Shown here: piece by piece, positions 5,079-55,670 of the stretch
How the letters are laid out: each line of letters begins with the position of its first letter
Numbering within the stretch: position 1 is the stretch's first letter
Assembly: GCA_031763025.1 (NCBI GenBank)
Contig: JASSKH010000006.1
Span: 1,771,048 to 1,835,047 of the forward strand
Origin: Macrocystis pyrifera
Lineage: Eukaryota > Sar > Phaeophyceae > Laminariales > Laminariaceae
Reading direction: 5' to 3'
Length of the DNA: 64,000 bases
Made by a program: the position numbers and the translations under genes
The notes under the pieces: model-generated
Told to the model about the DNA's origin: nothing
Databases searched by the model: none
What the model saw: only the letters and a program-made list of their open reading frames with translations

Positions 5079-5172
5079 CAGGCCCGATGCCGCCTCAAGA
5101 AGAGCCAGCGGAAGCGCCGCCGCAGCCACCACCGGGGCGAGGGCCGACCGCTTCAAGGCCTCGTTCACAGCC
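5079..5172 (-). CDS. DUF726/TMCO4-like exon 10
   Basis: This exon encodes 31 codons starting AVNEALKRSALAP and continuing VVAAAALPLALLEAASGL. That is the hydrophobic Ala/Leu segment which in DUF726 proteins follows the WES motif and precedes the conserved 'IDNPW' and GxSxG region. The acceptor is CTCGCTCAG|G at 5173 and the donor CTG|GTGAGC after 5079. The first G completes the AG left by exon 9, giving an Arg codon, so the phases fit. It ends in phase 0, and no following exon could be found down to position 1. Its acceptor and first codons are copied repeatedly in the array immediately upstream (5173-6085). The family assignment rests on position after VWES and on composition. Confidence 0.8.
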
Positions 5173-6085
5173 CTGAGCGAGGTAAGCGAGGTGTACACGG
5201 CAACAAGCACCGAAACGATACATGAGAGAGTGAGGGGGGGAGGGGTTCCATTTTTTTTTGTGTCCTTGACAACCCTGAGCGAGGGAGTACACGGCACAGT
5301 AGGGCCACACACAACTTAAGAGTACCAAGATGGTATGTAAACAGAAGAGAGCGAGGTGGGGCGGGGGAGGGGAGTTGCACTGCCTGCGCGGCGTGCTTCG
5401 AGGCCTCGTTTACAGCCCTGAGCGGGGTACAACGCGGCGTAGGGGAACACACACGGCAGCGAGCGCCGGGAGATGGTAAACAGGAAGGAAGCGAACGGAC
5501 GGAGGGGGGCGGGAAAATCCGTTGTTTGCACCGCGTGCATCAATTCATGGTTTCGTTTACAGTTTACAGCCCTCAGCGAGAGGGGAAGGGAAGCGGGCGG
5601 GGAGTTCCGTTGTTAGCACGGCGTGCATTACTTCAAGGCTTCGTTTACAGCCCTGAGCGAGGTCAAACACGGTACAGGGGAACACAGCACAGAAACAAGC
5701 GTCTAGAGGGTGTGTAGAGGGTGTATACATAGAAAAAACAGGGGAGTAGACACCCAGTGCTTGCAAGGCCTGCTTCGATTCAACACTTCACATACAGCCC
5801 TGAGCGGGGTGAAACACGGTGCAGGGCTACCTAGAGCAACACGCGCCGAAGCGATGCATACACAATTGGGGGGGTGGGGGGGGGGGGTTCCTCTGCTGCG
5901 ATGGGTTTCAGGGCTTCGTTAACAGCCCTGAGCTCGAAAAAAACACGGTACAGCAGGGGCACACAAAGCTCCAGGAAGATGTGCAGAGAGTGAGGGGGGG
6001 GTGGGGGAGGGGAGTTCAATTGCTCGCACGGCGTGCTGCAGGGTCTCGCTAACAGCCCTGAATACGGAAAGCACCGTGCACGGGG
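5150..6085 (-). repeat. tandem array of exon-10 acceptor plus exon start, about eight units
   Basis: The plus-strand core GCTTCGTTTACAGCCCTGAG recurs near 5157 (the genuine exon 10 start), 5262, 5400, 5549, 5635, 5780, 5909 and 6040, spaced about 85-150 bp. Read on the gene strand, most units carry a CTCAG|GGCTGT acceptor followed by codons for AVNEA, the first residues of exon 10. Between cores lie G-rich stretches (C-rich on the gene strand) and ACACGG/GGGGAACACA words. The array fills most of the 3' side of intron 9. It looks like a minisatellite grown out of a 3' splice site. Confidence 0.85.
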
Positions 6086-6236
6086 CGCACACCGCAACAA
6101 ATATTGAGAGGATAAAACAGATAGCAAGCAGTAATCGTACACATAAAACCAGCAGATATTATATATATATATATATATGACGGGTATCAGTTTTTACAAA
6201 AAGTATGCATCTTTTTCTCTTGTCTCGTAGTCTGTG

Positions 6237-6412
6237 AACCGTACAACTAAAAACACACAACAACAACAACAACAACACCACCACCACCACCAACCCCGCC
6301 AGCACCAACACCAACATCACCACCAGCATCACCAGCACCAACACCATCACCACCAGCATCACCAGCAACAGCACGAACTACTTCTATTGGCGACACCGAA
6401 CAACAAAGCGTC
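6237..6412 (+). repeat. CAA/CAC/CAG simple-sequence tract
   Basis: Cryptically simple run of CAA, CAC, CAG and CAT triplets. The reading QQQQHHHHH is open on the plus strand only because the triplets contain no stop, so it is not called a gene. Confidence 0.9.
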
Positions 6413-6715
6413 TCTCTAAATAGACTGGATCATCACATCACCACAGCATCAGTGCCCTCTCACCACTGCACAACATATCACACGGTCTATCAACACAACC
6501 ATTACCTGGTACTATATTACTGCATTTCCTCACCCGACAACATGTTGCCAATAGCATGAGCTTCAACGTCCACCACTCATGAACATTCCCCACGAAAAAA
6601 AAAAAACACCACGCTGGGCGTCAATATAAGGACCGTTGGGTCTTCAAATTTACGCATAAATGGTCCTTATATTACCGCGCAGAGAAATTTATTCATTCAT
6701 TTTTTCTGCTCTTGC

Positions 6716-6850
6716 CTTCTGGAAGCGGATTTCCACGCCAGGTTTCGCATCGCAGCGTACAGCTCCGCCAAGGGCCCGCTCTCCCACACCAAACACGTGC
6801 TCCTCGCCCCCGCTGACGAAATCCCTCCACCACGCGTGCGACGGCAACGC
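6716..6850 (-). CDS. DUF726/TMCO4-like exon 9, with a frame change
   Basis: The first part reads ALPSHAWWRDFVSGGEEHV and the second LVWESGPLAELYAAM then RNLAWKSASR. It matches the family stretch '..W..L...ERYTLQWESKNLIAL', the strand and helix after the first hydrolase strand. The acceptor is TTTTGAGCAG|GCG at 6851. The donor is CAGAAG|GCAAGA, a GC-type donor (6715-6714). The two readings are in different frames: GTGTTTGGTG around 6790 holds one base more than a continuous frame needs. Discounting it, the exon is 134 nt and ends in phase 2, which fits exon 10. This is either a real one-base insertion (pseudogene) or a sequencing error. A 59-codon ORF that ignores the frame change (6868-6689) is a by-product. 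Confidence 0.8.
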
Positions 6851-6879
6851 CTGCTCAAAAGGTTTCATACAGCGCGCGG

Positions 6880-7160
6880 CAGATCATCGACCCCCACCTT
6901 AACGATCTAGATCTCTCAGGGAAGACGTATTCCTCATCTGCGTGATCTATACTCGTAGCTCATGTCACCGGGTGGCACCGTGAAATACGCCGTGCCTATC
7001 GTAATAGCACTTGTTTTCCTGGGTTGGATCTGTACAACACAGATCCTGCACTAAACTGGATATGTACTACACAGATCCTGCACCATTAACATCTCCCAAT
7101 GGGAGGTTAGGATCTAGATGATCTACATGATCTACATCGTGACCTGTCCGACGCATGGAA
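6880..7160. repeat. family G (GATC-rich dispersed repeat)
   Basis: Dense in GATCTACATGATCTACA-type words, with ACACAGATCCTGCA twice and an end resembling GACCTGTCCGACGCATGG. Related copies are at 8056, 14500, 48575, 50075 and 50935. The copies share an end like GATCTGTCCGACGC and a middle CTGCTGTAGATCATGC. It has no coding capacity. It begins about 30 bp from the acceptor of exon 9. Confidence 0.7.
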
Positions 7161-7280
7161 CAGCTGACAGTTGAGTTGGCTCACGTATCAATAGCTTGCC
7201 CCCCACAACCATAATAGCTACCACCGTCAACCCCACCAGGGCATGCCTTGCGCACGGCCCTACCAAGTCGGACATACATA

Positions 7281-7662
7281 CAGTAGTGGTCCCTCCCTAG
7301 TCCCGGTTTGAGTAGTGCTGGTTGCCCCGCTATTTTTTACATGTTTTCATTATTACTTTTTTCTTCTTCTTTTCCATTTATTTTTTTCCGCCGTTTTTCT
7401 CTCTCTCCCTCTCTCTCTCTCTCCTTCTGTAGTCGTGATTCAGACTCGGGGACACAAAGCAGGCACGTGTCCCCCCTCCGCTCCCCACCACGGCACATGC
7501 CTGTTACTTGTATCGTGAGAAGGGTACACATAGCGCCTGTGGGATCGCTTGACACAGCAAGTGGGATCCACCAGTGTGGTATTGCGAGTAGATGCCGGTT
7601 GCCCTCAATAGCGCTGGTATCGTCGGCTTGCGCATACCGGCACTGGAGAGGGACCACTACCG
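7281..7662. mobile_element. family D element, interrupted
   Basis: Starts CAGTAGTGGTCCCTCC and ends GGAGAGGGACCACTAC. About 200 bp of foreign sequence splits it near 7335-7545, including a SINE-II-like piece (about 7430-7510: GTCGTGATTCAGACTCGGGG, then a CCCCTCCGCTCCCCACCAC-like part). Confidence 0.7.
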
Positions 7663-7738
7663 TGACCATGAATACTGCCCTAGAAGGCAACACATCCCCT
7701 GGAACGGATTTCAGAGCCGTTTTATTTCCAAAAACAAC

Positions 7739-7913
<175 letters not shown>

Positions 7914-8055
7914 AGCCACCACGAAAACGGTGGCTTTGGGAAAATCTCGAAAGCAACTTCTCACAACTCGGAGATATCACGATCTATCTAGATATCTATC
8001 TATCTATCTATCTACCGTAGATCAGTTGGCTCATTTTCCCCGGCTGCCGTTGTGA

Positions 8056-8275
8056 ATGGGTGTGTACAGGATCTGCATAATACAGATCCCGCCCGGAAAA
8101 TATGTGCTACAGCAGTAGATCATGCAGACTATGCGGGTCCCATCCGGCGACGTGAGCTACTACCGTATACCAGGTACCATCCAAGGTCGGGAATAGATGG
8201 CCTATCTGCCTTGAAAGGTCTAGATCATGATCTACAGACGATCTGTCCTACTGCAGGCGTGCAACTTCCCATTGA
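8056..8275. repeat. family G copy
   Basis: GTGTGTACAGGATCTGCATA, TACAGCAGTAGATCATGCAG, TCTAGATCATGATCTACAGA and the end GATCTGTCCTACTGCAG. It aligns along its length with 50281-50480. Confidence 0.75.
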
Positions 8276-8369
8276 CCCTTTTACAACTGCAGTCCTGTTT
8301 TGGGGGCAAAATGCTTGAAGTTTGAGCGGTTTGTCCCCAAAACGGGACTGTGCAGTTCTAAAAGGGTTA
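8275..8369. mobile_element. family B hairpin element
   Basis: About 95-bp near-palindrome. The left arm is CCCTTTT..ACTGCAGTCC.GTTTTGGGG and the right arm CCCCAAAACGGGACTG.CAG..CTAAAAGGG, around a short AT-rich loop. At least thirteen copies are in the window (8275, 11322, 11592, 12319, 12419, 31999, 32513, 38895, 40051, 41598, 42462, 48474, 50726). It is a non-coding foldback MITE. Confidence 0.85.
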
Positions 8370-8576
8370 GACGCATCGTTCTGCGTTTGCACTCTCCCCG
8401 GTGTCGGTAGTAAAATGTGTCGGTAGTAAAATCAGCAAAATACAAAATTCGTTCGAGGGAGTGTGTTATCTTGTCACTTGTCGCCCGTGTGGTACGGCGG
8501 TGCGTGGCCCTTTGGTACGACCCTGTTCCAGTACCCCTCTTTCTCAGCCCTGCTGACTACTGCTGTGCGAGTGTGC

Positions 8577-8885
8577 GTGTTCTTCACACTCAACATAGAC
8601 GCGTTTTTCCTACCCGTCGACATCCGGCACAACTATCAACAGTGTCCGACCCGATTCTTCAATCCTGGAGAGATACGAGCCCTGTGGTCACAAAACTACG
8701 ACAGAGATACTATTAATTCATTAATACCATGGTACTGCTGTGCATTGTTACTGACTGTAGGCAGTAGTGTGTGTGTGTTCTTCAAATTGAATCGTTCTTT
8801 CTACCCGTCGAGATCCAGCACAACCAGTGTCCGTGCCGATTCTTCAACCCTAGATACAAGTTCTGTGGCCACGAAACTACCGCGA
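8577..8885 (+). mobile_element. family C foldback repeat, two partial copies
   Basis: Two runs (8577-8715 and 8766-8885) of the family C half-unit: TTCTTCACA..AACCGTTCTTTCTACCCGTCGACATCC, AGCACAACCAGTGTCCGTGC, CGATTCTTCAATCCT and TGTGGTCACAAAACTACG. There is no ORF of interest. Confidence 0.8.
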
Positions 8886-9284
8886 GGGAGCTCGTGCCGC
8901 TCCGCCTCTATCCCCTGCTCATGCTGCTGCTGCTTGCTTGGTGCTGTGTGCGGCGGTGTGAGAGCTTGCGTGCGAGAGTACGTCTGTGTGCAATAAACGA
9001 CCAGGGTATAATAGCGCTAGCACCAGACGCACCCGCCGCAGAGCCGCCACTTCAGGCCACCCGCTTGGCGAGCTTGTGCGAGCCTCTGTTACTGCTGAGC
9101 TATTATAGTGTGTGTGGCTGTGTGCTCGTTCGCTGGGCGCTGTGCGCTCTAAGTTGTGATTTTCAAATAATTGTGCGGGTTTCCACTGTAAAATACGTGC
9201 CTTTTTTTCCTGGCAGGTTCTGAAACCTCGCCTGCGCAGGCAGATTTACGGCGGGTGCGCCACATCAGAGAGACTACGTTGCCA

Positions 9285-9770
9285 CGTATGCAGTAAGCAC
9301 AACTGCTGTGGACAATGCAATGCCATGGCATCACACTGGATACGACAGGGACGACATACACATTCTGTGAAATAGAGAAACCGAAGAAACCAAAGAAAAA
9401 AACAAGGACAAAGACAAATCGAAAGAGAGAGAGAGAGAAAAAAAAAACGCAGAGTAGACAATGCAATGTGTGTGTGTGTTCTTCACATTAATAAACCGTC
9501 CTTTCTACCTGTCGACATCCAGCATTACCAGTGTCCGTGCCGACTCTTCAATCCTAGAAGAGATACGAGTTCTGTGGTCACAAAGCTGCGCCACAGCAGA
9601 GGCACCGCATTGTTATGCAGTGAGTATATAGGGTAGACAACGCAATGCCATCCTCCTACTGGATACGACAGACACGACATGCACACTCTAAAAAAGAGAG
9701 CTAACAGAAGAAAAGTAACGAACAAACAACAGAGAAACAAATCGAATGAGAGTATTCGACGAATTATTGC
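9285..9770 (+). mobile_element. family C foldback repeat, tail piece plus full half-unit
   Basis: 9285-9375 is the tail (GACAATGCAATGCCATG, then GGATACGACAGG.ACGACA). 9455-9700 is a full half-unit from GTGTGTGTTCTTCACATTAA to CACACTCTAAAAAAGAGAG. The family A copy at 9771 lies directly beyond. Confidence 0.8.
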
Positions 9771-9880
9771 TATTACGGGGGTCCATAGTTAATAGGACCT
9801 ATGGTATACATAAAAAACTATATATTTACCTATTTTTACTAACAATATTTAGTCATGTTAACTATGGACCCCCGCAATAG
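9771..9880. mobile_element. MITE family A, copy 2
   Basis: TATTACGGGGGTCCATAGTT at the left and AACTATGGACCCCCGCAATA at the right, nearly perfect inverted ends around an AT-rich core. Confidence 0.9.
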
Positions 9881-10179
9881 TTTTTTCATCTTGAATGAAT
9901 AACGCCCTGCACACTGTCAGATGGCACATAATAAAAAAAAAAAAATCGAATGAGAAAAAAAAGAAAGGAAAAATGTCGTGGAATCATCGTGTATTTGGAT
10001 ACGACAGGCACGACACACACATTACATATGGAAAAGTTGGGTGGAAGTACGAGATAGAATTCGCATATATATGTGACCCTTTGATACGACCCCGTTCAAG
10101 TATCCTGAACAAAAATCCGATGAAGTTCCCCATGACCCGAAAGTGTCAATCCCAGCCGGCAATCTTACCGCATACAATG

Positions 10180-10365
10180 GGATACCCATTTCAAGATCAT
10201 CCCGTAGCCCAAAAAACGGTGGTCTCATATATTTTACCAGTATCTTTACTATTAATATTAATATTATCGATACTGAAAAAATGATCCCGTTACGCTGGTT
10301 CCAGGTGCCAGTAGTTTTCTTCCTTGTGTGACAAGCCGATTTACCTGAGATCTCATCTGACAATT
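10180..10365. mobile_element. family J TIR element
   Basis: ACCCATTTCAAGATCATCCC, GCCCAAAAAACGGTGGTCTC and GACAAGCCGATTTACC. It is the reverse of the element at 20040-20222; a third copy is at 51375-51512. It is non-coding. Confidence 0.7.
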
Positions 10366-10466
10366 ATTACATGTCACGGGACAGCTTTGGCGAACCTTAA
10401 TTGCGCGCCGCGCATATTAAACCCTACTCTGCCAGGCTCCGGAAACTGGAGCCAACTTCTATGAGA

Positions 10467-11090
10467 ATCCTCGGGAGACATCGATCGACAAAACCAACGA
10501 CTCCGTCATGAAACCTGAACGGAACGTACTGGGTAGGGTCTCCGACCCACACTACGTAGTGTCGCAGTGCTCACACCTCCTTTCGTGATACCAGGTATGT
10601 GACGTGGACCAGCCAGGCGTCTGATAAAAACACATTTCTGGCGCTGGTCTGTCTGCGATGGCAAGAAATGGACCATTCCTCAGGTTGGACATCGATCGAC
10701 AAACCCAACGACTGCCTCACAAACTCCGAACGAAGCGCGCCGGTTAGGCTCCGACCCACGCGAGGTGTCACAGCAGTAGTGCCCACTCCTCGGTCGGTGA
10801 CATGTGGCGTGGGTGGGCCAGGCGTCAATAAAAAACACATTTGGCACCTGGTGTGCAGAAAACAGACGACAAAAATTATCTATCCCTCTCCGTGGGCACA
10901 ACATGGGAACTTTTTGAATGTTTGGACGAAGAGCGTAGGACGACTAGGCCATCCTCTCGCCCCCTAGACCAGGGATTCCAATGATGCTTTCGAGGACATC
11001 ATGTACACTCACTGGCCTTGCCCGGCACGAAGCGCGTTGACCGTGGGTTGATTAAATGTCGAGATCGAAGGTCAATCGTCGCGTGACTGC
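10467..11090 (+). repeat. dispersed repeat H with internal direct duplication
   Basis: The block ACATCGATCGACAAAACCAACGACT..CTCCGACCCAC..CCAGGCGTC..AAAACACATTT occurs twice in tandem (about 10475-10635 and 10690-10855), followed by a single tail through TCTCGCCCCCTAGACCA to GTCGAGATCGAAGGTCAATC. The same order without the duplication is at 25195-25595. The family is unrecognised; it could be a solo terminal repeat, but no defined ends were seen. Confidence 0.75.
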
Positions 11091-11321
11091 GGGTGTGCGA
11101 GCTGCGAGCTGTGTCTGTTTACTTCTTGTTCGTGTGCAGCGTGATTTCGCGTTTCGCGTTAATACAGCGATTGGATGGGTACATAGCTGGGGTAGCTCGC
11201 GTTAATACAGCGGTATGATTGGTAGATAGCCAGCGCCAACCCCCCTCGACACTTGAGACTTGCCGTCAAATCTCTACCAAGGCCTTATAGACCGGATGGT
11301 CTTAAAATCGGCATGGCCTTG

Positions 11322-11416
11322 ACCCTTTCGGAATTCCGGTCCCGTCTGGGGGACAAACGACTCAAAACTTCCAAGTGGCTTGTCCCCAACACGGGATTGC
11401 AGTCCTAAAGGTGTTA
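11322..11416. mobile_element. family B hairpin element
   Basis: GACCCTTTCGGAATTCCGGT..CCCGTCTGGGGGACAAACGAC and GTGGCTTGTCCCCAACACGG..CAGTCCTAAAGG arms. Confidence 0.8.
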
Positions 11417-11591
11417 AACCACTGCTGTACCTGTGCTGTACATCACCATCGTACGCTATATAATCCACACACAAACATTCAGTCCATAGTCTGCTGCTGC
11501 TGTATGATGCGTGCAACGACGCAAACGGGCAGCATTTTTTCGCTGCAAAAAACAGAAGAGAAAAGAAAATATTTTGACTGAGGGACCCCTC

Positions 11592-11692
11592 AACCCTTTC
11601 AGAACTTACAACCCCGTTTAGGGGGGCAAAACTACTTAGGAGTTTTGAGTGGTTTGAGCCGAAAACGGGGCTCTGCAGCCCTAAAAAGGGTT
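11592..11692. mobile_element. family B hairpin element
   Basis: AACCCTTTCAGAACTTACAA and GGGGCTCTGCAGCCCTAAAA arms, with the usual GGCAAAACTACTT centre. Confidence 0.8.
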
Positions 11693-12318
11693 GTGACCCC
11701 CGATAGAACTGCACTCTCGTTGTGTCGACATTCGGGGGGGGGGGGGAGATTACCTGGAGTTAAGAGTTAGGTACACGTTTAGATGCAGTGCGATACTATT
11801 GGTAGAAGGGTTCATTCACCCTTCTATGACACCACTGCTTTTGGTCTCGCTTGTGTTGTTGTGTTCTCGTACCGGGTACGCTGGCATTTCACTTGCTTGA
11901 CACTTGAATTTGCGATTCTTTTTATTTTTGTTTTCGGTCCAGCTCTGTCTCACGGTCTGTGACCACGGAATCAGTATCTCTACGGGATAAGGAATCAGGA
12001 CGGACACTGGGTGTATTGATGAAGCTGGTTAGAAAGGACGATTCAATGTGCAGACCAACAACAACAACAACAACAACAACTGTACACAAACCTAAAGATG
12101 ACTCTATTAGTCCCAAGTGTCTTGTCCCGACAACGCAACTGCAGTCCTCAAGGCCCGAAGGGGTTAATAATGAACGAAAAATCGTACACCCAGTTTCTGC
12201 CGGCAACATTTTTTTTGTTTGTTTGTTTGGTTTCACGAAAAAAACCGTGGTGTGTGCCTGCAAGCCACCGCCGTGCCGTGGGGTTGTAGCTCGGGTTGTA
12301 GTTGCAGGCATCTGCTTG

Positions 12319-12523
12319 AAACCCTCTAAGAACTGCAGTCCATTTTTTGGGAGCAAACAACCCAAATCGTTACCAAGTTCGCCTTTAAAACGAGACTGCG
12401 GGGTACTAAAAGGGTTTACCCCTCTACTAGACCCGCAGTTCCGTTGCGGGGGCAAAGCGCTTAGAATTGCAGCCGGATTTAGGTTTCTGGACAAAACAGC
12501 AATGCCGTACTAAAGGGGCTAAA
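12319..12523. mobile_element. family B elements, two head-to-tail copies
   Basis: First copy 12319-12418 (AACCCTCTAAGAACTGCAGT to ACTAAAAGGGTTTA). A weaker copy follows at 12419-12523 (CCCCTCTACTAGACCCGCAG to GTACTAAAGGGGC). The family E element follows at once. Confidence 0.7.
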
Positions 12524-13018
12524 AGACCAACTATTATGGGAAATTATTTCTGAGCTCTCAGAACTGGGTTTTTTAGGCCGAATATACGCGTTTTACTCGG
12601 CGAGAAAGCCAAAAAACACCGATAGACTCCTCAAAATGCTCCCCGTAGTTTTTTGCGAGCTCTCAGGAACAAGTTTCCGTTTCTCCAGAGTCCTATTTTA
12701 AATTTTGGAGCAGCCAATCGCTTTTCTCTGGAGGGTCAGAAATAAGGCTGTTGGTCAGAACTGGGGCCAGAAATAGTGGATCTTCGAGGATTTTTGATGA
12801 AAAATGACGATGTCCTCAGAACTGGAAATATGGACGAACAGTCCTTCTACGACTCTGGAGAAACGGAAAAGTGCTCGCGAAAGCTCTCGGAAAACTAAGG
12901 GGAGCATCCTGACGAGTGTACCGGTGTTTTTGACAGTCCCGTCGAGTAAATCGCCGGTTTTCGGCAAAAAAAGCCAGTTCTGAGACCCCTTCAAAAAAAT
13001 CCCATGATAGTTGGTCTA
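12524..13018. mobile_element. family E, 495-bp TIR/foldback element, copy 1
   Basis: Ends are AGACCAACTATTATGGGA and CCCATGATAGTTGGTCT. Inside, the halves mirror each other again (TCTCAGAACTGGGTTTTTTA against AAAAAAAGCCAGTTCTGAGA; repeated TTTCCGTTTCTCCAGAGTC). A second copy of the same length lies inverted at 45901-46394. There is no convincing ORF, so it is a non-autonomous DNA element. Confidence 0.88.
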
Positions 13019-13168
13019 AGCTTGGTTTTCGCGCCACGCAAAAAAGTTTCTCGAGCGAGAAGCTTCGGAAAAATTAAGAGCTCCCTTCAATGTTTAATCG
13101 TTTTCGTATATATAATGCCAATAATTGCCAACAAAAGTGTTCAGGATAGTCGCGTATAGCGAGCTCAC

Positions 13169-14440
13169 CTCCCAGCTGCCTTCCATCTCATCGCCTCCCC
13201 GACCCCCCCCCCCGCTCCCCCAAACCCTCCCGCCTCGGCATTTTCCGCCGCTGCAACCGCGGCTGCCGTAGCCCCCGCTGCCGTAGCCCCGCCAGCAGAA
13301 CCGCCTCCGTGCCTTCCAGTAAGGCCTACGCCACGGTGCCGGCCACTCCGACTGGAGACCCCACCCCCCTCTCCCCCGCCCTCCCTCTCTCCCATCCTGC
13401 ACATCGTCCCCGTAACCGCTGCTGCTGCTAGCGCTCCGGCTGCTGCTGCTGCTGCTGCTGCCACCGCGACTGCTGCGACTGCTGCGGCTGCTTTTGCTGC
13501 TGCTCCGACTGCTTCGTCCGCTGCTGTTGCTGCTGCTATTGCTGCAGCTGCTGTTATCGCAACGTTGCATCCTGGCGCCGAGGTCAACAAAAAGAACACA
13601 CCATAGCCGGTGCCGGAGCGGTGGACAGCAGCGGCGGCGCGATCGGATCGCTTCCCGAGCCGTTCTGCAAGTCGTTCCTCGAGCCGTTCCGCGAAACGGT
13701 GCTCGAGACGCTCCGCACACAGTTCCGTGAGCCGCTTCGCCAGCGTTCTCCACTCCCGCCGGCGCATGGGTCTGGACTTTCGCTCAGGTCGCCCCCCCCC
13801 CCGTACCGTTTCCCCTGCTCTCCATGTCCCCTCCCGCCGCCCCCCTCTGAACATCCCTCTGGTCTGTCCGTTCCTGGTCCTCTTATATTAGCTTGCCTCT
13901 TGATAGACTGCACGGGGTGGAGCGGCGGCAGGATCGGCTGCGACGGTGGCCCCGCTGGTTCATCCCGGACAGTCCCGTTGCTGACAGTTTCGTCGCTGAC
14001 AGTCCCGTCGCCGCCAGAGACGGTCACGAGAGTCTCGCGCGCGGCGGAGAACCAGCGAGACATGGCGCCGCCCACCTCAGCCCCCTTCTCCGGAATACCA
14101 ACGGCCCGCCCAAGCGCCCGATGCTGTCGTCCTCGCCCCCCCCCCTCCTCCTCCTCCTGCTTCTCCCCCTCCTCGCCCTTCCCATTCCTCTTCCTCTCCT
14201 CCTCCTCCTCCTCCTTCTGCTTCCGTCTCTGACCGTACAACCGCTGCCGCCGCTGTTTCCGCTGTCACCGCTACCGCTGCTGCCGCGCCGTCGGCACCTG
14301 TGTTCGTAGCGCAAACATGGGCTTCGCTCGTGCCTTCGCCGCAGCCACCGTCGTTGTAGGGCGAGGAGGAACAAGAGGTTGCCTCGGAGGCAACTGCGGC
14401 GGCTGCCGCGCTTGCGTAGCCGACGCCTCCCCACACGTGC
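13169..14440 (-). CDS. DUF726/TMCO4-like exon 8, long low-complexity insert
   Basis: The acceptor is TATTCCATAG|G at 14441; the G completes AG from exon 7 and the reading opens RHVWGGVGYASAAAAAV. The donor is GAG|GTGAGC after 13169, with the frame ending GGDEMEGSWE. Both ends fit the family, where this place has a short link with a PWEGL-like motif. Between them lie about 1.2 kb of Ala-, Gly-, Ser-, Glu- and Arg-rich low complexity, including an Arg/Glu stretch ERLEHRFAERLEERLAERL. The start and end frames differ; they are separated by three poly-C runs (plus strand 13203-13213, 13792-13802, 14136-14145), where length errors or slippage are likely. An unrecognised intron inside is possible. 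Open frames on the plus strand are shadows. Confidence 0.65.
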
Positions 14441-14499
14441 CTATGGAATACCGGTAGGTAAGTAGCACGGGCTGACGGTTTAGTTTCGGATCGTTCCAG

Positions 14500-14815
14500 G
14501 CGTCAGACAGAATAAGATCAGAGAGATTATTCCTACTTTCACGATCTAGCATCTTTCAAATCCTGATCTCGTGTATGATTTCATGATCTGCAGTATTGAT
14601 AGTGCATACTTCAAAACAGTCACAAATTCCTGATCTGCAAGACCTACAGCAGCAGCAGCAATGCTCCTGGGTGAAAGCCCTAAGATCTGCATGATCTACA
14701 CGTAGGACACGTTTCCTCGTTTGGATCTGCACAACACAGATCCTGAACAACACCTAAGGTTGGGATTCACAGCAGTAGGTAATCTACACGATCGTCATCT
14801 GTTCAAGGTGTGAGA
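14500..14815. repeat. family G copy
   Basis: Runs of TCATGATCTGCAGTATTGAT, GATCTGCATGATCTACACG and GGATCTGCACAACACAGATC. On the minus strand it starts within about 30 bp of the exon 7 donor, so it fills intron 7. Confidence 0.7.
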
Positions 14816-14841
14816 CGTTGCGAACAGTCTCCTCCGCTCAC

Positions 14842-14981
14842 CTCGGGTCGTGCCCCGGCTCATACCACCCAGGGATGCAGATGAATACCGGAAGGCCCGG
14901 CTCCGAGGCTCCTTCGAACATCGACTCGGGGGCGTCCAGCGGCCACTTGGAATGCAGGGGGAGGAAGTGGAACTCCTGGAC
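14842..14981 (-). CDS. DUF726/TMCO4-like exon 7
   Basis: Encodes VQEFHFLPLHSKW and, later, GLPVFICIPGWYEPGHDP. In the family the GYKM segment is followed at once by a 'xxEFxFxPL' strand and then a hydrophobic strand ending G-W, the first core strand of the hydrolase fold. The acceptor is GGGGCGCAG|GTC at 14982, in phase 0, which matches the end of exon 6. The donor is CCCGAG|GTGAGC after 14842, in phase 2. An open reading extends upstream of the acceptor (YSILNSKLVHITGA) but is not needed by the family alignment and is taken as intron. One of the strongest exons. Confidence 0.92.
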
Positions 14982-15039
14982 CTGCGCCCCGGTTATATGG
15001 ACAAGTTTCGAGTTCAAGATGGAGTACTTGGTGGTTTAT

Positions 15040-15430
15040 TGGTGCGCTATTGATGGGTTCATTGATTGTCGACGGTTTGTTGTGATCGATTGATGGCTGA
15101 TTGATGTTCGATAGTTGCTGCTTGATGGGGGGAGCACTAACCACTTGATCGATACTACCAGGTGTCGTTGAGGGTCCCTGCTGACAGGTGTACGATATGG
15201 TCAAAACTAACCCCAGCCCAAACCCCAACTACTGCTGTAGCCCCAACTCAATCAGCCATTGTAAATATAGGATTAGTCCTCTTCATCTCGTGCACAAAGC
15301 AGTGTGTCGAATACCTGCCAGGTGAAGTGGTGAGCTCTACTGGCTTCGGTGGTCGATTGATTTTCGGTAGCTCGTTGACAGTCGATTGATGGTTGTTGAG
15401 TGATGAGCGATGATTGTTTTATGTCGATTG
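15040..15430. repeat. TTGAT-rich degenerate tandem repeats
   Basis: Scattered ATTGATGG, GTCGATTGAT and TTGATGTTCGAT words in two clusters (15045-15130 and 15350-15430). It lies in intron 6. No gene is seen. Confidence 0.6.
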
Positions 15431-15664
15431 TTGACTTAGAAATACAGTAGTCAAGCATCAAGCACCTGGTATTTTTCATTCTCACCAGTGTGCCACCTCG
15501 TATTGTACGAATATCAAAGGCTGTGTATATTTTTTATCAGGTACGTAGTGTTCAGCGGGGTATGGCAAGACCGCATGACCAACAGCAGCCAAAACGACCA
15601 AAATCAACCAAAACGACAACCAAAACAACCAGAAACAACGGGCCAAAGCCCAAAACAACCATAC

Positions 15665-15887
15665 CCCCGCGGTCCTCCTCGTCATCTTGTAACCAGCGAC
15701 GCCCGCGCCCGCCGCGCCCGAAACGGCACTAAACGCGCCCACAGTCCCGGCTGTCGTCGCACTCGTCGACGCCACCGTCGCCGCCGCCGCTGCAGAAGCT
15801 GCAGCAGCCGCGGCCGAGGTAGACGTATAGCCCAACCACGCTCCCAAGGTTGGCGCGACATAGGACACAGAGTTAGCAGCTGCGTAC
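15665..15887 (-). CDS. DUF726/TMCO4-like exon 6
   Basis: Encodes 74 codons: AAANSVSYVAPTLGAWLGY, an Ala/Thr/Ser-rich stretch, then SGAAGAGVAGYKMTRR. The last motif is the family signature 'FGAAGAGLTGxKMxRR' after the second glycine-rich membrane segment. The acceptor is TTCAACCCAG|G at 15888. The single G completes GG from exon 5 to a Gly codon, so the phases match. The donor is GCGGGG|GTATGG after 15665, in phase 0. A 34-G tract (poly-C on the gene strand) lies just upstream of the acceptor in place of an ordinary polypyrimidine tract. This is the best single match to the family in the window. Confidence 0.95.
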
Positions 15888-15899
15888 CTGGGTTGAATT

Positions 15900-15912
15900 G
15901 GGGGGGGGGAAA

Positions 15913-15947
<35 letters not shown>

Positions 15948-16190
15948 GGAAGGGAGGGAGGGATCGCCATCATCGCTCGATCATCATTGTTTGACACTTG
16001 TCACCATCTGATCGTCCCCATCGTTTCAGCGGCATCACCGCTTGATCGTCATCCTTGTTCGACTCCGTCGCCATCGTTTGGCCGCCAATATTACCGCTTG
16101 ATCGTCATCCTCGTCTGATCGTCATCACCATCGCCCACCTGTCATAATCGCTTCGTCGTCCTAATCGTCCGCTTCATCGTGTCAAGGCCG
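15900..16190. repeat. poly-G tract followed by ATCGTC-type minisatellite
   Basis: G runs at 15900-15909 and 15913-15946, then CGCTTGATCGTCATC and CATCGTTTCAGCGG-type words repeated irregularly to about 16180. Confidence 0.8.
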
Positions 16191-16194
16191 ATTT

Positions 16195-16960
16195 CGCTCT
16201 TTCGGCCGTACGGTGCTAATTTCAGTTTTAGGGAGGCGGTCTTGTAGGGTGCGTCAAGACCTCTTGTGGCATTGCTACACCAGTTTTAGTGCAGGGAGGA
16301 AATATTTTCGGGCGCTTCTCGGTCTCTTTTTGGTCTTACTCATGCGAACTAGTGTAGTTTTAGTGTAGGGAGGCGGTGTTTTGGAGCGTCAGACCTTTTT
16401 TGGCCTCCCATGCTAGTTTTAGTGTAGGGAGGCGGTCTTCTTGGGCGCGTCAAGGTCTCTTTTGTCCTTGCTATACTAAGGAGGCGGTCTTTTGAAGCGC
16501 GTCAAGGTCTCTTTTGGCCTTACTACGTATACTAGTTTCAAGTGTAAGGGGGCGGTCACTTGGTGCGCGTTGAGGTCTCCTTTGATCCTACTGTACTACT
16601 GCTGTGGTTCTAGTGCAAGGAGGCGGTCTTCTTCGGCGCATCAAGGTCTCTTTGGGCCTTACTATACTAGCTTTAGTGTAAGAAGGCGTTTTTTTTTGGG
16701 GCGCGCCAAGACCTCTTTCGGCGTTACTGTACTAGTTCGAGTGTAGGGAGGCGGTCTTTAGGGCGTCAAGGCCTCCATGGGCCTTACTGTACTACTGTAG
16801 TTCTAGTGTAAGGAGGCGGTCTTTAGGGGACGTCAAGGCCTCTATTGGCCTCACTATACTAGTTTTAGTGTAGGAAGGCGGTATTTTGGGCGCGCTAAGG
16901 CCTCTGCTGGTCTTAATATACTCGTTTCAGTGCAGGGCGGCGGTCAGTCAAGGGGCCAAA
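16195..16960. repeat. tandem array of a 60-80 bp unit, about eleven units
   Basis: The unit is TAGTTTTAGTGTAGGGAGGC, GGTCTTTTGGGCGCGTCAAG, GTCTCTTTTGGCCTTACTATA, with the GGAGGCGGTCTT core near 16225, 16362, 16420, 16480, 16548, 16620, 16683, 16747, 16811, 16874 and 16935. A single related stretch is at 49790-49850 (TTTAGTGTGGGGGCGGCC). It lies in intron 5. No gene is seen. Confidence 0.88.
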
Positions 16961-16974
16961 CCGCAATCTCCAAC

Positions 16975-17070
16975 TAGTACGGGGGAACATAGCACTCATA
17001 ACCAAATTTGGTGTGTAGACATCCGGAGGTGTACGATATTTGGGTTGGTGGGTTCTGATTACTGTAAGCC
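16975..17070. mobile_element. family K short TIR element
   Basis: ACGGGGGAACATAG..CATAACCAAATTTGGTGTGTAG at one end and GGGTTCTGATTACTGTAA at the other. A related element is at 52205-52325. Confidence 0.55.
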
Positions 17071-17121
17071 CCTCGAAATACTTGTGTTTCAACATCGTTT
17101 GCGTTTTTTTTGCCCACGTAC

Positions 17122-17213
17122 CCCACCGCCGACAGAGACGCCGTCACGGACGGAGCCGCGACCCCTCCACTCAGAAACAGCAAAACGCCTCCTCCGGCCG
17201 CCGCCATTCCGAC
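17122..17213 (-). CDS. DUF726/TMCO4-like exon 5
   Basis: Encodes VGMAAAGGGVLLFLSGGV then AAPSVTASLSAV plus two bases. It aligns with the family's first glycine-rich membrane segment ('IGLAAITGGTLMAITGGLAAP' in plants), a predicted transmembrane hairpin. The acceptor has a good polypyrimidine tract, TTCTCTCTCTCCGAAG|GTC at 17214, and the donor is GTGGG|GTACGT after 17122, in phase 2. ORFs on the plus strand here are shadows. Strong match, although the exon is only 92 nt. Confidence 0.93.
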
Positions 17214-17566
17214 CTTCGGAGAGAGAGAACACGAAAGACGAACACGAACAAGCGGAAACAGAACGACGGAAAAAAAAATGAGGCAAAAAACAAGGAAACA
17301 ACAGACGCGCTGAGCGCGAGCGCACAACGAAGTGACGAAGAAAAAATACATATGTACTGCCAGTAAACGACACATTGAACAACATGGAACAGCAGTAGCA
17401 AGACAAGTCATGGAGAAGCAGACAACGTCCATTATGTGTGTAAAATAACGTAGTCCACACTATGCATAGCACGACAACCAAAACTCATCTCGACGATCTA
17501 TATACGAGTCTGCGGTCAAGAGGCATACCATGGAAACTACGGGTACAGGTATACCTGGTATATTGT

Positions 17567-17645
17567 ATGTGTATGTTCTTCACATTAAACCGTTCTTTCT
17601 ACCCGTCGACATCCAGCACAACCAGCGTCCGTGCCGATTCTGGAG
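17567..17645 (+). mobile_element. family C fragment
   Basis: GTATGTTCTTCACATTAAAC, TTTCTACCCGTCGACATCCA and ACCAGCGTCCGTGCCGATTC. Confidence 0.75.
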
Positions 17646-17899
17646 TTGACCCATTCAGAGAGTGCCAGGTATACCGTACGTATGTCGTTGTTCTTATATT
17701 AACTCATCGCCATAATACAACGCAGTCCGTGGTCGCAGGACAGGCTCCAATAAGTCTGGAGTGGAAGAACACCTCGGCAAAAAAAAACGAGCAAAGAATA
17801 ATACCCATGACAACTGAAGCACGTCTACACCTCACGACAGATACAAAAAAGTGAGGTCCGCGCACGTACGCATCAGGTACATGCGGTACGCTGTACAAG

Positions 17900-18400
17900 T
17901 CGCCACAGAAACCGAGAAGACCGCATACTACCCAAGAGAAATAGACAGGATGAAGAGAACACAAATCGACGTCGAAAAATCGAAATCGAAAAGATCAAAA
18001 ATTGAAAATTGAAAAAGGGAAGAGAGAGAGAAAAGAAGTTAAATTCAAGAAAGAAAGAAAGAAAGAAAGGAAACACACAAGAGAATGCGCAGATTTTCGC
18101 AGATTGCAGACCCGCAAGCTACGCGAGGTAGAACAGAGATAAGAACCAGAAAACAAGCATACTCACTTCGCTACTAAGAACACCAGGGAAGCGAAAAATA
18201 AACGAATCGAGAAAAAAACGAAAAGGAAGACGACGAAGCAAAGCCAAAAGAAAAAAGCAGACAGCAAAAGCAGAACCGAAAATACAGACAGAGACACAAA
18301 GAGGGGCAAACAGGAAAAAAGGAAAGAGCAAAAAAAGAAATATGTTTCCTCCCCTGAGTTCCACAGCCGTCAGATTTTGTTCGCCTCAAAACCGGTAGTT
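17900..18400. other. A-rich purine tract, no gene seen
   Basis: Plus strand is A/G-rich (GAAAGAAAGAAAGAAAG, AAAAAACGAAAAGGAAGACG). The Phe/Leu-rich ORFs on the minus strand reflect only this composition. Confidence 0.6.
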
Positions 18401-18654
18401 CGCGCGATTGAAGTATATCTCACGGAGCTCGCGAAGACGAGTTTCGACAAAAATCTTCCATCTCTCACAGCTGTCGTTTTTCTATTATAGTTTCAGAATG
18501 TTGACTACAGCAACAAGGCAACGAACCGAGCCAAAATTGCTACGCGTGTTCGTACACACGCATTCCTGCACGTATTCCAGGATAACCATACATTGTGGTA
18601 TCCCCGTGTCCAAGTTTGTATCCACTTAGCGCTTGTGTCTCTCAAGGACTTAAG

Positions 18655-18986
18655 AATCAGCACGGACACTCGTTGTGCTGGATGTGTGTGTGTTTTCTTT
18701 ACGTTCTTTCTACCCGTCGACATCCAGCACAACCAGTACCCGAGCCGATTCTTCATCCTATTACAGAGAGATACAAGTTATGTGGTCACAAAACTACGCC
18801 ACAGAGATACCACATCGTTATGCAGTTAATCAGAGTACACAAAGCAATGCCATGTCACAGGTCGTACTGGAACGACAGGCACGACTTACGCATTCTAAGA
18901 AAAAAAGAGACTAGAACTGAAGAATCAGCACGGACACTGGTGGTGCTGCGCGTGTGTTCTTCGTTCTTTCTACCCGTCGACATCGT
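18655..18986 (+). mobile_element. family C foldback repeat
   Basis: Starts with a short hairpin, AATCAGCACGGACACTCGTT against ACATCCAGCACAACCAGTAC, then runs through the full half-unit to CGACAGGCACGACTTACGC. A second partial copy begins at 18918. Confidence 0.82.
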
Positions 18987-19235
18987 ACCACAAACTGCTG
19001 CGGCTGTGTACCTGGAGGGTGCTTTGTGCTTCGATTTGCCTGTCATTTTCTCTTGGTTCCTAGTTTTACTCTGTTCATAAGTAGTGATTTTCTTCAGCTC
19101 GTTCTTTCCGAGTGTCTGTCTGCCACATCACCTGCGGGGAGGCACGACAGTTTTTCTTTTTCTTTTTCTTTTTCCTTGTCTTTGTGAAGTTGTTTTCTAC
19201 ATTTTCTTCATTTTCTTGCGTTTTCTCTTTCATAA

Positions 19236-20222: not shown

Positions 20223-20242
20223 TTTTTTTTTTTTTTTTTTCA

Positions 20243-20558: not shown

Positions 20559-20699
20559 TGTACCCGTTCACAATGTTCATGTCAGATCCCAAACGGGTAT
20601 TACAGCATATTCACAGCTAAAGCGGTACCAAAATGTTGCAGAGCACAATACTCCGAACGAAAAACAGTCGCGGTGAGTATGATCTACAGCAAATACCAA

Positions 20700-21007: not shown

Positions 21008-21041
<34 letters not shown>

Positions 21042-21446: not shown

Positions 21447-21809
21447 CACCAATAGTATAATGTCAATGCTAACGTAACGCTAGCGCTACTGGCTGTCACT
21501 GCCACTGCCCTGTGTGTTCATGTGCGTATTTGAGCGTGTATTCGTGCGTGATTCGTACGTGCGTGTCGCCGCTCACATGAAACCGTAACCGTCGCACATG
21601 CTTCATCCTATTGTAGACATAACAGCTCTTTGTGATCACAGACTACTGTACACACGAGACATGAAAATTACGCATCCCATGCCAAACGTATAAGGTACGA
21701 AGCTGGTAGCCGAGAGTTTGTGGGTCATGGCTTCACCTGGTCTCCGTCCGGAATTCTGGCATCCTGATCCAAGGCCAGAGACGCCAGCTCTTGCTCCGTC
21801 ACCGCCACC

Positions 21810-22956: not shown

Positions 22957-24016
22957 CTGCTTCCAAGAAACCCTCCCGTCCAACAGCCTCACAGCGCGCT
23001 TCACCGCCGCCCGCGCCCGCGCGTCGTAGACCGCCCTCTCCACCTGCCGCCGCACCACAGCGCCGAACGCCTCCTCCAGCCACTCCTCTGGAAAACCCCC
23101 GACCCTGGCAGCCAGCTCCTTCACGGTCGCCTCCCTGCTCACCAGGACTACAAACTCCCCCCCTTCCCCGTCGCTCCACTCGTGCCCAAGCCGCGGGAGC
23201 CGCTGCTGCTGCTTCTGCTGCTGAGGTGGCCGTCGCCGTCCCTCACGGCTGTCCGGGGCGCTCCGCCCCGCCCTCCGGTCGCAATCTCTACCACCACCGC
23301 TGCCGCTACTGCCTGCGCTAACGCTACGGCTAACGTTAACGCTAACGCCACGGCAAAGGCTACCACTGTCGCTAGCGCGGCTAGTGTTTCCCTGGCTAGC
23401 GTAGCCACCGCTGACGCTATCTTGTCGATGACGGGCGTCAACTCCGGCAGCTCCAGCTCGCCCCTCCATCTCCCCCTGCTGTTGCTGCAATAACCGTCGC
23501 GCTTCACCGCCCCCGCTCCCGCCCGCCCCCCCTCTGCCGCCTCCGCCCCCGCCCCCGTACTGGCTACGCGCACTACCTCCACTTCTCCCAGCAGACTTTG
23601 TCGCGGCCCTACTGTCGACATCGAGGTCATCGTCGTCAAAGTAAGAGTACGCGGGTGGAGGCCGGTGGCCAACCACGGGGTCCGCTCCGGGCAGGGGATT
23701 TCCACTCGCCCCGGAAGGCGGTATCGGGGGTGGGGGGGGGGGACGGGGCCATGAAAGGTGGAGGAAACCAGATCCCCCTTCTCACGGTCTCATCATCGTC
23801 GTCATCGAAATCTTCTCCACCCTCCTCCTGCTGCTGCTGCTCCTGTTCAGCCTCAAGCCCGACCACGCTGGAGAAACTGCCCCAGGAGCTGCCCAGAACG
23901 CTCTCCTCCCCGCCGTCGCTGCTAACAGTAGTGCCCCCTTCCGTCTCCCCTAGAACCCCCTCACTACCCCCTCCGCCCCCCCCTTCCCCTTCCCCTTTGC
24001 TATCATGAGCATTGCT
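22957..24016 (-). CDS. DUF726/TMCO4-like exon 3
   Basis: The C-terminal part reads EFVVLVSREATVKELAARV, then FPEEWLEEAFGAVV, YDARARAAVKRAVRLL and DGRVSWKQ. This matches the family helix with YDAR that precedes the membrane segments. The donor is AAGCAG|GTGGGA after 22957, followed by a T-rich intron start. The N-terminal part is acidic and low-complexity (EEGGEDFDDDDDETVRRG) with poly-Gly and poly-Gln. The two parts are in different frames, separated by an 11-C run on the gene strand (23732-23742) whose length may be wrong or variable. The acceptor CCACAAG|AGC at 24017 is a guess that fits phase 0. ORFs on the plus strand are shadows. Confidence 0.8.
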
Positions 24017-50512: not shown

Positions 50513-50614
50513 TCGGGAGGTAGGTTCAGTACTTTTGCACCCATCAGGGTTTGGGTAGTGTACATCAAAACCAGGCTCGGTTTATTTTCTGAGAAGGGAA
50601 GCGTTGGCACTTTC

Positions 50615-50724
50615 ATTACGGGGGTCCACATAGTAAATAGGACCAAATATTGTTGGTAAAAACAGGTAAATATATAGGTTTTTATGTATACCATAGGTAC
50701 TATTAACTACGGCCCCCCGTAACA
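50615..50724. mobile_element. MITE family A, copy 6
   Basis: ATTACGGGGGTCCACATAGT to AACTACGGCCCCCCGTAACA. Confidence 0.9.
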
Positions 50725-50725
50725 G

Positions 50726-50806
50726 TAACTGCAGTTCTGCAGTCCCGTTTAGGGAACGAACTACTTAGAATTAGAGTGGACTGTCCCCAAAACGGGACTG
50801 CAGTTA
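50726..50806. mobile_element. family B element between two family A copies
   Basis: TAACTGCAGTTCTGCAGTCC to AACGGGACTGCAGTTA. It fills the space between family A copies 6 and 7 almost exactly. Confidence 0.85.
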
Positions 50807-50807
50807 C

Positions 50808-50917
50808 TATTACGGGGGGCCATAGTAAACAGGACCAAATATTGTTAGTAAAAATATGTAAATATATGGGTGTTTGTGTGCACCGTAGGTCCTGTTAACT
50901 ATGGTCCCCCGCAATAA
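50808..50917. mobile_element. MITE family A, copy 7
   Basis: TATTACGGGGGGCCATAGTA to AACTATGGTCCCCCGCAATA, in the same orientation as copy 6. Confidence 0.9.
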
Positions 50918-50934
50918 AAGTGTTACTCATAGCA

Positions 50935-53110: not shown

Positions 53111-53424
53111 GGTAGTGCCGTTCGAATCAAAATCTTTCTTCGAATAGTGGTTCAACCTACGCTTAAAACCGTCCGCCATGCCTTTCAAACAACGAAAAAT
53201 TGCCAATCAAAGTATCTGTCAATCTGTCGTTTGAACTGCCCTTCAGTTTTCTTGAATCGTTTGAACCGTCTGGGACGTATGCCCATGGGACACGACAACC
53301 CAACACTTTTGTCGGAGCAATGACCGTATTGCTGCTGGTGTTGGTGCTGGCGCAACAATTGTATTGTTGGAGGGAGAGTAGGAGAACCCCATCATACTGC
53401 CCAACTACTGGAGTTGCGCCGTAG

Positions 53425-53720
53425 TCGGCATCCCCGGGGGTCCCGTGGTGAACCTCGTAACTACCAAGGTCGATTTCGCGGAGTTCGAGCCCGCCCGAGG
53501 GAAACTTTCTCGTGCAAAACTTTACACAGATCGCCCCTGGCGGTGATTACGCACATAAATTCGACGCGAGTCGACAAGGGAAAATAAAAGGTTGTGAACA
53601 ATTTTCTCATTCGAAAACGAAGGCATGCATGCATCGTGGTGGGGGAGGGGAGGAGGAGTACCTGCTATATATGTGACCATGCGAAGGGATCTGTGTTACG
53701 AAAGGCGGAAGCTGAAAAAA
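53425..53720 (+). mobile_element. SINE-II, plus copy with tRNA-like head
   Basis: Head CCCCGGGGGTCCCGTGGTGA..AGTTCGAGCCCGCCCGAGGG (B-box GTTCGAGCC), then CGACGCGAGTCGACAAGGGA, GGTGGGGGAGGGGAGGAGGA and GTTACGAAAGGCGGAAGCTG. It aligns with the reverse of 48080-48460. Confidence 0.7.
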
Positions 53721-53724
53721 GCAG

Positions 53725-55570
53725 CGCAAAAGTTAGGGCTGTGAGTTGGCCGACTATAAGTCGCCGACTATTAACAGTTATTATTCGGGTAGGTAGGTTC
53801 CATGACTAGTGTACACACCTGGTGGGGCTGTGGGTTGGACGACGACAAGTCGCCGACAAGCTATTCGTTGGCCACTAACACCCGTGTTGCATCGCCCACA
53901 AAAAAAAAAAACTGCCTTTGGCCAATTCTACAATCAACTAAATGCCTGGAAGCACCTGTATTTCCGTTTTTTTTTCCTACCAATGTTTCGTAATTCTGCT
54001 TTAGCTCAAAACTTTCCCATTGATCCAATAATTGGCAAGGCGGACATGGGCTCCATGGAGCACTCCCGTGACGGTGGCAAAGCAGCGGCAGTTTCCGTGC
54101 CCTGTTTCCAGTCGGACCTCGTCGCTGAAGTCTGAAAATGGGTAAAAAATATGGTTCCAGGCGTTTGAATTTGATTTTCTTGTACTGGAGCCAAGCGTAT
54201 TTTTGGCTGCTGTAGAAACGTATGCTCGTATCATACTCGTACCAGTTTCCTTAAGGTTTCCTTGGTATTAATACTTTTAGTAACTGTTTTTAATGATATT
54301 TTGGTAGGTCTTAGCCCGGCAGCAGAAGCGTAGGACATGCTCCGTCGCTCTGCCGCTGCTCTTCCCAAGAATACAGTAGCTGCTGTATTAGCAAGGCCAG
54401 CAAGTAACACGTGTCTGCGTATGCGTCGGGACAAAAAACGGAGTTTTTTTCGCGTGTTTCGACTGTCGGCACAAGCAAGAGCAGGATAGCCGTTTTGTGC
54501 ATGTTTTCGTGATTTTTCAGGCACCATTCTCAGGTCGACCGTGGCAGCTGGAGGTTCGATCCCTAGTTTCGCAAGGCGGAAATGACATGGCTGGCTGTGT
54601 GCGAGCACACAGACGGAAATCTGGTCAATTTCGTCAATCGAGTCGGAATTCGGCCGTGAAAATGGCCTAGTCGGGCGGCGCAATTGCCTCGACCGAAGCT
54701 GCCGTTTGCTTGAAGCTGCGGTGCACCGAATTTATCCAACCCTAGGACGGCCAAGCGCCAACCAGCCACAGAACATACTCTATCATGACTTGATTGAGTT
54801 CCTCTGATCGTCGTGTGTCATCTGGGGGTTTCAGTGGGTAGCACGGTGACCGTGAAGAGTGCCTCAAAAGGCCCTGTGTGGGGCTGATCTCTGCCAAACC
54901 CAGGTTTCAATAATATTCGCGTTTTATTAGTGCTCCTGAAAAAAAGTTTGTAGGCAATGCAACACAGGTGTTGACTCCTTTTGAGACCCCCCGACAACGA
55001 CCAACACAATGGCTTGTACCTTTGGTGCTACCAGCCATTTAAGCGTGAGCGCCCAGCAGCAAGGGTAGGGTCACCTTGCGCCCATGCCGTGCGTGCGACC
55101 CCTTGCATTGCAACTGACACCAACCATTGTATCATCCCCCAAATCCCGCATTGGCCGTCGCAGTATTCGTCACTTTATATCTCCAAGTTTTTCCCTCTGG
55201 AATAAATCCCAAGAGGATTAAAAGGTAATACAGACAGCTACGTGCGGTAAATGAGGGAGCTACTGCGCCTTTGTAAGCTCGACGGGGGTGTACCTTTAAC
55301 GAAAACACTTCGTACTGTAAGTCAATTAGGTTGTTGGCTTGATTTTACTTGATTTTACCATCCAATAAATAACTACGAGCAGCCGTGAAGCCCACCCAGC
55401 TCAGTCCTAAAAAAGTACGGTAGATAGGACAGAGACAAAAAAAAAGAAAAAAAAGTATCCACACACAGGCGACAAATCAGAGAAATAACACTGGAACACA
55501 CTCGTAAGAGTGCAGTCGTCCTGATTCCTGACTCCGTTCGACTCGCACCTTCTCGAGCAAATGTGTGTTT
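53725..55570. other. no gene recognised
   Basis: Part of intron 1. Short ORFs on both strands (longest 150 codons, 54231-54683 minus) show no family resemblance. AGTTGGACGACGACAAGTCGCC and a similar AGTTGGCCGACTATAAGTCGCC form a small direct repeat at 53745 and 53830. Confidence 0.4.
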
Positions 55571-55578
55571 CGGCGCAC

Positions 55579-55670
55579 TGGGAAGCCGCGCAACACGACA
55601 GGTACTTCGCCAGCTGGTGCCCCCTCTCCATCGCCGCCCCGGTACCGTCCGTCGCTGCGTGTTCCCGCAT
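55579..55670 (-). CDS. DUF726/TMCO4-like exon 1 (tentative, start codon)
   Basis: ATG at 55670 opens MREHAATDGTGAAMERGHQL then AKYLSCCAAS plus CA. An in-frame TAG lies six bases upstream, which supports this start. The donor would be TTCCCA|GTGCGC, a weak site, but its phase fits exon 2 (CA + G gives Gln) and the join KYLSCCAASQVAKAGAAACK reads smoothly. A CAG acceptor sits 14 bases upstream of the ATG, so the 5' UTR may itself be spliced. The ORF continues past the proposed donor, so a separate short gene is possible. Confidence 0.42.

Follow-up and report, generated by a model that had tools for sequence, protein, structure and literature searches.

A splice-consistent exon chain in giant kelp is probably the 5′ half of a second, diverged DUF726 gene

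Our analysis of a 64,000-nucleotide (nt) window of the giant kelp (Macrocystis pyrifera) genome (assembly GCA_031763025.1, contig JASSKH010000006.1, positions 1,771,048 to 1,835,047, forward strand) reveals splice-consistent minus-strand exons whose joined translation belongs to the Pfam family PF05277 (DUF726) up to position 187. We consider it probable that giant kelp has a diverged second DUF726 (TMCO4/Mil1-like) gene, that these exons make up its 5′ half, and that its 3′ half is lost at a contig end. The supported gene is read leftward, comprises at least eight exons, numbered 3 to 10, and spans ~18 kb. An original prediction from the sequence had proposed ten exons; exons 3–10 are borne out by a joined PF05277 score of 56.1–57.2 bits, and exons 1 and 2, in whose region the best 40 similarities look repeat-like, are not.

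Exons, splice sites and family membership

The features that bear on the gene are as follows, in window coordinates.

22957..23157, minus: exon 3, with the conserved end EFVVLV...VYDARARAAVKRAVRLLDGRVSWKQ; donor CAG/gtggga; 5′ boundary tentative
21737..21808, minus: exon 4, VAVTEQELASLALDQDARIPDGDQ; AG acceptor and GT donor; in-frame link between exons 3 and 5
17122..17213, minus: exon 5, VGMAAAGGGVLLFLSGGVAAPSVTASLSAVG; splice sites; singly, PF05277 positions 8-45 with an expect value (E) of 0.16 and 19.2 bits, below the cut-off
15665..15887, minus: exon 6, YAAANSV...GAAGAGVAGYKMTRRTAG; splice sites and tblastn match
14842..14981, minus: exon 7, VQEFHFLPLHSKWPLDAPESMFEGASEPGLPVFICIPGWYEPGHDP; splice sites; lies within the joined PF05277 match (1.3e-9)
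14269..14440, minus: exon 8, RHVWGGVGYASAAAA...; start supported; several phase-0 donors make its end tentative
6737..6850, minus: exon 9, (ALPSHAWWRDFVSGGEEHVF) VWESGPLAELYAAMRNLA; PF05277 gain; tentative acceptor; possible one-base excess before VWES
5110..6061, minus: diverged direct repeats carrying the exon 10 acceptor and first codons; copies in the intron before exon 10
5079..5172, minus: exon 10, AVNEALKRSALAPVVAAAALPLALLEAASGL; splice sites; best candidate against the Ala/Leu exon of the complete kelp gene described below
2311..2410, no strand: exactly 100 consecutive N, 2.7 kb beyond exon 10; interpreted as a scaffold join

GT or AG is present at all 14 boundaries read (7 donors and 7 acceptors, the exon 9 acceptor being one of several possible), and exons 3–8, spliced at these boundaries, give a stop-free translation. 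In particular, the proposed junctions 17122/15887, 15665/14981 and 14842/14440 show GT donors and AG acceptors, and the exon 8 acceptor, CATAG/GCACGTG, finishes the codon begun by exon 7. Counted from the coordinates, exon 9 in the VWES frame ends with two spare bases, and the first base of exon 10 completes the codon. The intron between exons 8 and 9 is ~7.4 kb (tentative boundaries). Detected repeats overlap none of the eight exons. Codon preference is positive for exons 3, 4, 7, 9 (both parts) and 10, and for exons 3–7 together; this is weak evidence, because 120-base windows outside known exons score similarly, up to +9.9 and +13.4 (the +13.4 window may itself be coding).

Family membership was assessed against the PF05277 profile (343 positions; gathering cut-off 22.6 bits). 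Exons 5–7 joined to the start of exon 8 match at E=1.3e-9 and 37.9 bits, above the cut-off, in agreement with the family originally proposed. Exons 3–8 joined, with exon 8 cut after RHVWGG so that the joined exon 3–10 peptide omits most of exon 8, score 37.0 bits. Addition of exons 9 and 10 raises the score to 57.2 bits if the reading of exon 9 crosses the one-base excess and to 56.1 bits if it keeps to the VWES frame throughout, a gain of 19–20 bits (joined E of 4e-15 to 1.8e-15). Substitution of decoy pairs for exons 9 and 10 (nine pairs generated, four scored) gives 36.9, 37.5, 37.2 and 37.0 bits, a change of at most 0.5, and exon 10 placed on exons 3–8 without exon 9 gives 37.5 bits. The best profile stretch of the joined peptide is 26–187. 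Judged by sequence, exons 3–10 are part of a DUF726/TMCO4 family member.

Taken singly, the exons are inconspicuous. Exon 6 stays below the PF05277 cut-off at E=3.5, exons 7, 9 and 10 do not match the profile at all, exon 3 lacks a DUF726 match of its own, and exons 7 and 8 without the others, exon 8 including its long Ala-rich part, give no PF05277 match at E≤1. A diverged, intron-rich copy of this kind is therefore easy to miss.

Comparison with the complete giant kelp gene

The same genome (537,376,219 bases in 223 contigs searched; window mean G+C content ~50%) contains a complete DUF726 gene, including RPVTLVGTSLGAR, on the plus strand of a 26.5-Mb contig (C189:6757200-6766235). Its joined exons, with intervening low-complexity sequence omitted, score 290.2 bits over profile positions 2-307. 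The window peptide aligns with the C189 peptide at 35% identity over 165 columns (BLASTP, E=3e-17). The N-terminal landmarks of the family (GG.AAP, GYKM, ICxPG, WES and the Ala/Leu helix) are present in order in the window peptide and collinear with the C189 peptide, as the original prediction had stated for its landmarks. Specifically, the order common to the C189 and window copies is YDARTR/YDARAR, GGGTLLAVTGGLAAP/GGGVLLFLSGGVAAP, GYKM.RRT, EF.F, ICxPG, WES and the Ala/Leu helix.

The correspondence extends to individual exons. The C189 open frame has GYDARTR just ahead of the VTFRRV...VPWHPR exon, which matches window exons 4–6, and exon 3 is thereby supported. Exon 4 occupies, by eye, the place of VSEVESTLARKV in the C189 gene, and has no other clear match in a genome-wide search with the window peptide. 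In tblastn with the C189 peptide, exon 5 matches at 4e-6 (50% identity) and exon 6 at 4e-9 (45% identity, 65 columns); exon 6 is Ala-rich, and a different Ala-rich frame reaches 6e-5 in the same search. Exon 7 can be aligned with EFEFES...VSICVPG, RHVWGGV of exon 8 resembles QRGWGVEP by eye, and exon 9 can be aligned with QYILRWESDWLVTL. In the C189 gene, too, an Ala/Ser-rich, possibly exonic open stretch separates the VPG exon from the WES exon. Among 4,905 minus-strand and 5,105 plus-strand candidate exons, exon 10 matches the C189 Ala/Leu exon best (score 54, next 36), and it is found by tblastn at E=0.003. Exon 9 is not among the best candidates listed against the short C189 WES exon alone, so it is supported by the gain in profile score and by its place in the BLASTP alignment.

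The two copies differ in gene structure and in extent. The C189 open frame appears uninterrupted (by eye, from genomic frames) at the places of window introns 3/4, 4/5, 5/6 and 7/8, from which we infer that the copies diverged long ago or that introns turned over. The C189 gene includes a catalytic half with GTSLGA (profile match as far as 307-313), and none was found for the window copy.

Searched over the whole genome, PF05277 at E≤10 yields seven matches (seven candidates scored), namely six in C189 and exon 5 of the window (E=0.16, below the cut-off), and does not list window exons 6, 7, 9 and 10. The window peptide gives 17 matches (27 candidates scored): window exons 4–7, C189 (E=0.11) and 12 weak matches (best 0.04), the best of which, on contig C212, proved on opening to be Ala/Gly low complexity. 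Four weak matches (E 0.12–0.88) were obtained with the C189 peptide against Protein Data Bank sequences.

The 3′ and 5′ limits of the gene and the readings weighed

The joined peptide stops at profile position 187 of 343, close to the run of 100 N. This run is probably a scaffold join, and window positions 1-2310 may therefore belong to another contig, placed by Hi-C only. The exon bearing the GxSxG serine motif, expected by the original prediction to the left of the window, did not turn up beyond the intervening gap: a motif search of the minus strand over the first 30 kb leftward was negative, and tblastn of both strands over 130 kb leftward with the C189 exons and two consensus-like probes found no exon for profile positions 188-343 among the best 6–14 matches per query. 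The best E for a catalytic-half query was 0.21; exon 10 was recovered by the same tblastn (0.003), and exon 7 was not. Nor was a second catalytic half found genome-wide outside C189, either with PF05277 (E≤10) or with the C189 peptide. The C189 peptide search gave six matches (seven candidates scored), with none in the window though the query covered exons 7, 9 and 10. The genome-wide absence is thus weak evidence, because the same searches missed several window exons.

At the other end, the supported span falls well short of the 50 kb or more, with a 26-kb intron, that had been proposed. Comparison of window 22957-64000 (minus) with the 42 kb lying 5′ of the C189 gene yields similarities of which the best 40 look like dispersed repeats, several frames hitting the same places. 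Position 55670, the proposed far end, lies inside a repeat at 55663-56267, and a Pfam search of the minus frame at 55376-55765 is negative at E≤0.1; among 10 chosen minus frames, none has a Pfam family at its cut-off. In a repeat comparison covering 324 kb, 5,029 of 18,122 bases (27.8%) of 5079-23200 have a copy elsewhere, as do 20.2% of 23200-55670. The exon 3 frame is open for 275 codons upstream of its donor. Codon preference at 23.5-23.26 kb favours a frame other than that of exon 3 (+8.9 vs −14.5 bits), and a further exon boundary may therefore lie close to exon 3. An alternative hydrophobic frame of 64 amino acids at 23260-23510 (minus; LPELTPVIDKIASAVATLARETLAALATVVAFAVALALTLAVALAQ...) has a positive codon score and no Pfam match. 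It may encode the N-terminus of this gene as an exon of its own, and an upstream exon without similarity to C189 is possible.

Several results weigh against reading the chain as half of an intact gene. These include the failure of both the leftward and the genome-wide searches to return a catalytic half, and the tentative state of the exon 8 donor and of the N-terminus, with a joined peptide that lacks most of exon 8. In addition, exons 9 and 10, joined to each other alone, give no PF05277 match at E≤1. The original prediction had staked itself on DUF726 matches for exons 5–7 and 9–10; exons 5–7 match, and exons 9–10 show their 19–20 bits only when joined to the others, which leaves the prediction unrefuted. 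Finally, the best-fitting reading of exon 9, SHAWWRDFVSGGEEHVF+VWES (EEHVF+VWES), needs a shift of frame by one base. The near-equal score of the unchanged VWES frame (56.1 vs 57.2 bits) weakens the case that a frameshift must be present. Acceptors whose first base is 6853, 6850, 6824, 6812, 6802 or 6799 leave the VWES frame open, giving an unbroken reading without a base change. The assembly is described as built from PacBio reads with Canu, Racon polishing and Hi-C scaffolding (PMC10498591), and a one-base error in exon 9 is plausible, because Racon is the sole polisher named in the assembly section of that paper.

These results bear most directly on a pseudogene or truncated copy, in which the catalytic 3′ half has been deleted, exon 9 is frame-broken and no working enzyme is made. 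The second catalytic half missing from the assembly (a weak point, since the searches miss diverged exons) and the out-of-frame EEHVF+VWES speak for it. Nevertheless, exons 3–8 stay open, with GT/AG at 14 boundaries, despite just 35% identity to the C189 copy; a one-base assembly error is plausible and an unchanged open reading of exon 9 exists; and the exons scored show a positive codon preference (weak evidence, other windows being similar). The missing half may be lost from the organism, absent from the assembly or simply overlooked by the searches; its coincidence with the contig end favours the assembly. We regard a pseudogene as unlikely, although it retains appreciable weight. A second DUF726 protein kept by kelps but truly without the serine-hydrolase half, acting as a non-catalytic partner or regulator, with decoy exon 10 acceptors that may modulate splicing, strikes us as improbable. 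The repeats on which the latter idea draws form a family of five copies including the reference (others 61–79% identical; spacing 245/235/275/130; 67-nt register), and two further repeat families add partial copies of the exon 10 acceptor region; such intronic copies could act as decoy acceptors.

Two other accounts concern the chain as a whole. A 50-kb gene, with exons 1 and 2 placed as far upstream as 55.7 kb and an intron of 26 kb, would be in keeping with the long introns that some of the gene probably has (~7.4 kb from exon 8 to exon 9, again with tentative boundaries). Against it stand the repeat-like look of the 40 strongest similarities to the 5′ region of C189, the location of 55670 inside a repeat, and, directly upstream of the exon 3 end, the 275-codon open stretch and the second frame favoured by codon preference; we judge it very improbable. 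The chain might also consist of unrelated open frames put together by chance in a hunt for motifs, an outcome that would be invited by Ala/Gly-rich exons that attract weak matches, by single exons that fail the Pfam cut-off, and by the low complexity of the C212 match that was opened. The joined E of 4e-15 to 1.8e-15, the collinear exons, the flat decoys, the rank of exon 10 as best of ~10,000 candidates and the E of 3e-17 to an independent kelp gene make this account scarcely credible.

Other features of the window and significance

The 5′ half of a second DUF726 gene thus remains the probable reading. The rest of the gene would then exist in the organism, and its product would be predicted, from family membership, to be an α/β-hydrolase-fold protein with a GxSxG serine like that of the C189 copy. 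It may work as a peripheral lipase-like protein in vesicle or endoplasmic reticulum (ER) trafficking, as proposed for TMCO4 and Mil1. Yeast Mil1 (Yfl034w) is reportedly an Apm2/AP-1 interactor, by the title of one cited paper. Catalysis cannot be claimed for the window copy, because its serine exon remains unseen. Human TMCO4 shares a Pfam family with the window copy, a likeness at family level, as these papers describe it (PMC10641524, PMC11878206); the family fold is given as α/β-hydrolase (PMC11878206). TMCO4 is described as an orphan lipase that is recruited to the ER by RAB18, is orthologous to yeast Mil1, and has substrates called unknown there (PMC10641524). Unlike human TMCO4, the window copy has no catalytic half in view. 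Mil1/Yfl034w belongs to the same family through this stated orthology (PMC10641524), and its function is not transferable with certainty. Our literature search found no paper linking brown algae with DUF726.

The window has other features of note. Positions 7760-7911 form an unbroken stretch of 152 G, which is poly-C when read on the minus strand, and runs of 30–34 G occur at 15913, 21009 and 56005. Short elements of ~120–150 bases lie at 2670-2795, 9765-9882, 21331-21476 and 27830-27952, with a longer one at 50608-50927; these elements reach 31–32 overlapping matches in the 324 kb compared, and those read by eye have inverted ends (TTACGGGGGACC...), resembling a family of miniature inverted-repeat transposable elements. 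Positions 1610-2152 (minus) match PF18804 below threshold (E=0.032, 14.5 bits, cut-off 26.6); this family is a cysteine cluster that accompanies KDZ transposases. No Rfam family at gathering threshold and no transfer RNA were found in the window.

The window gene is apparently an ordinary member of a known, widespread lipase-like family, and beyond annotation its consequence is small. The assembly gap at 2311-2410 may hide the catalytic half. The two copies together indicate that DUF726 is duplicated in a brown alga.

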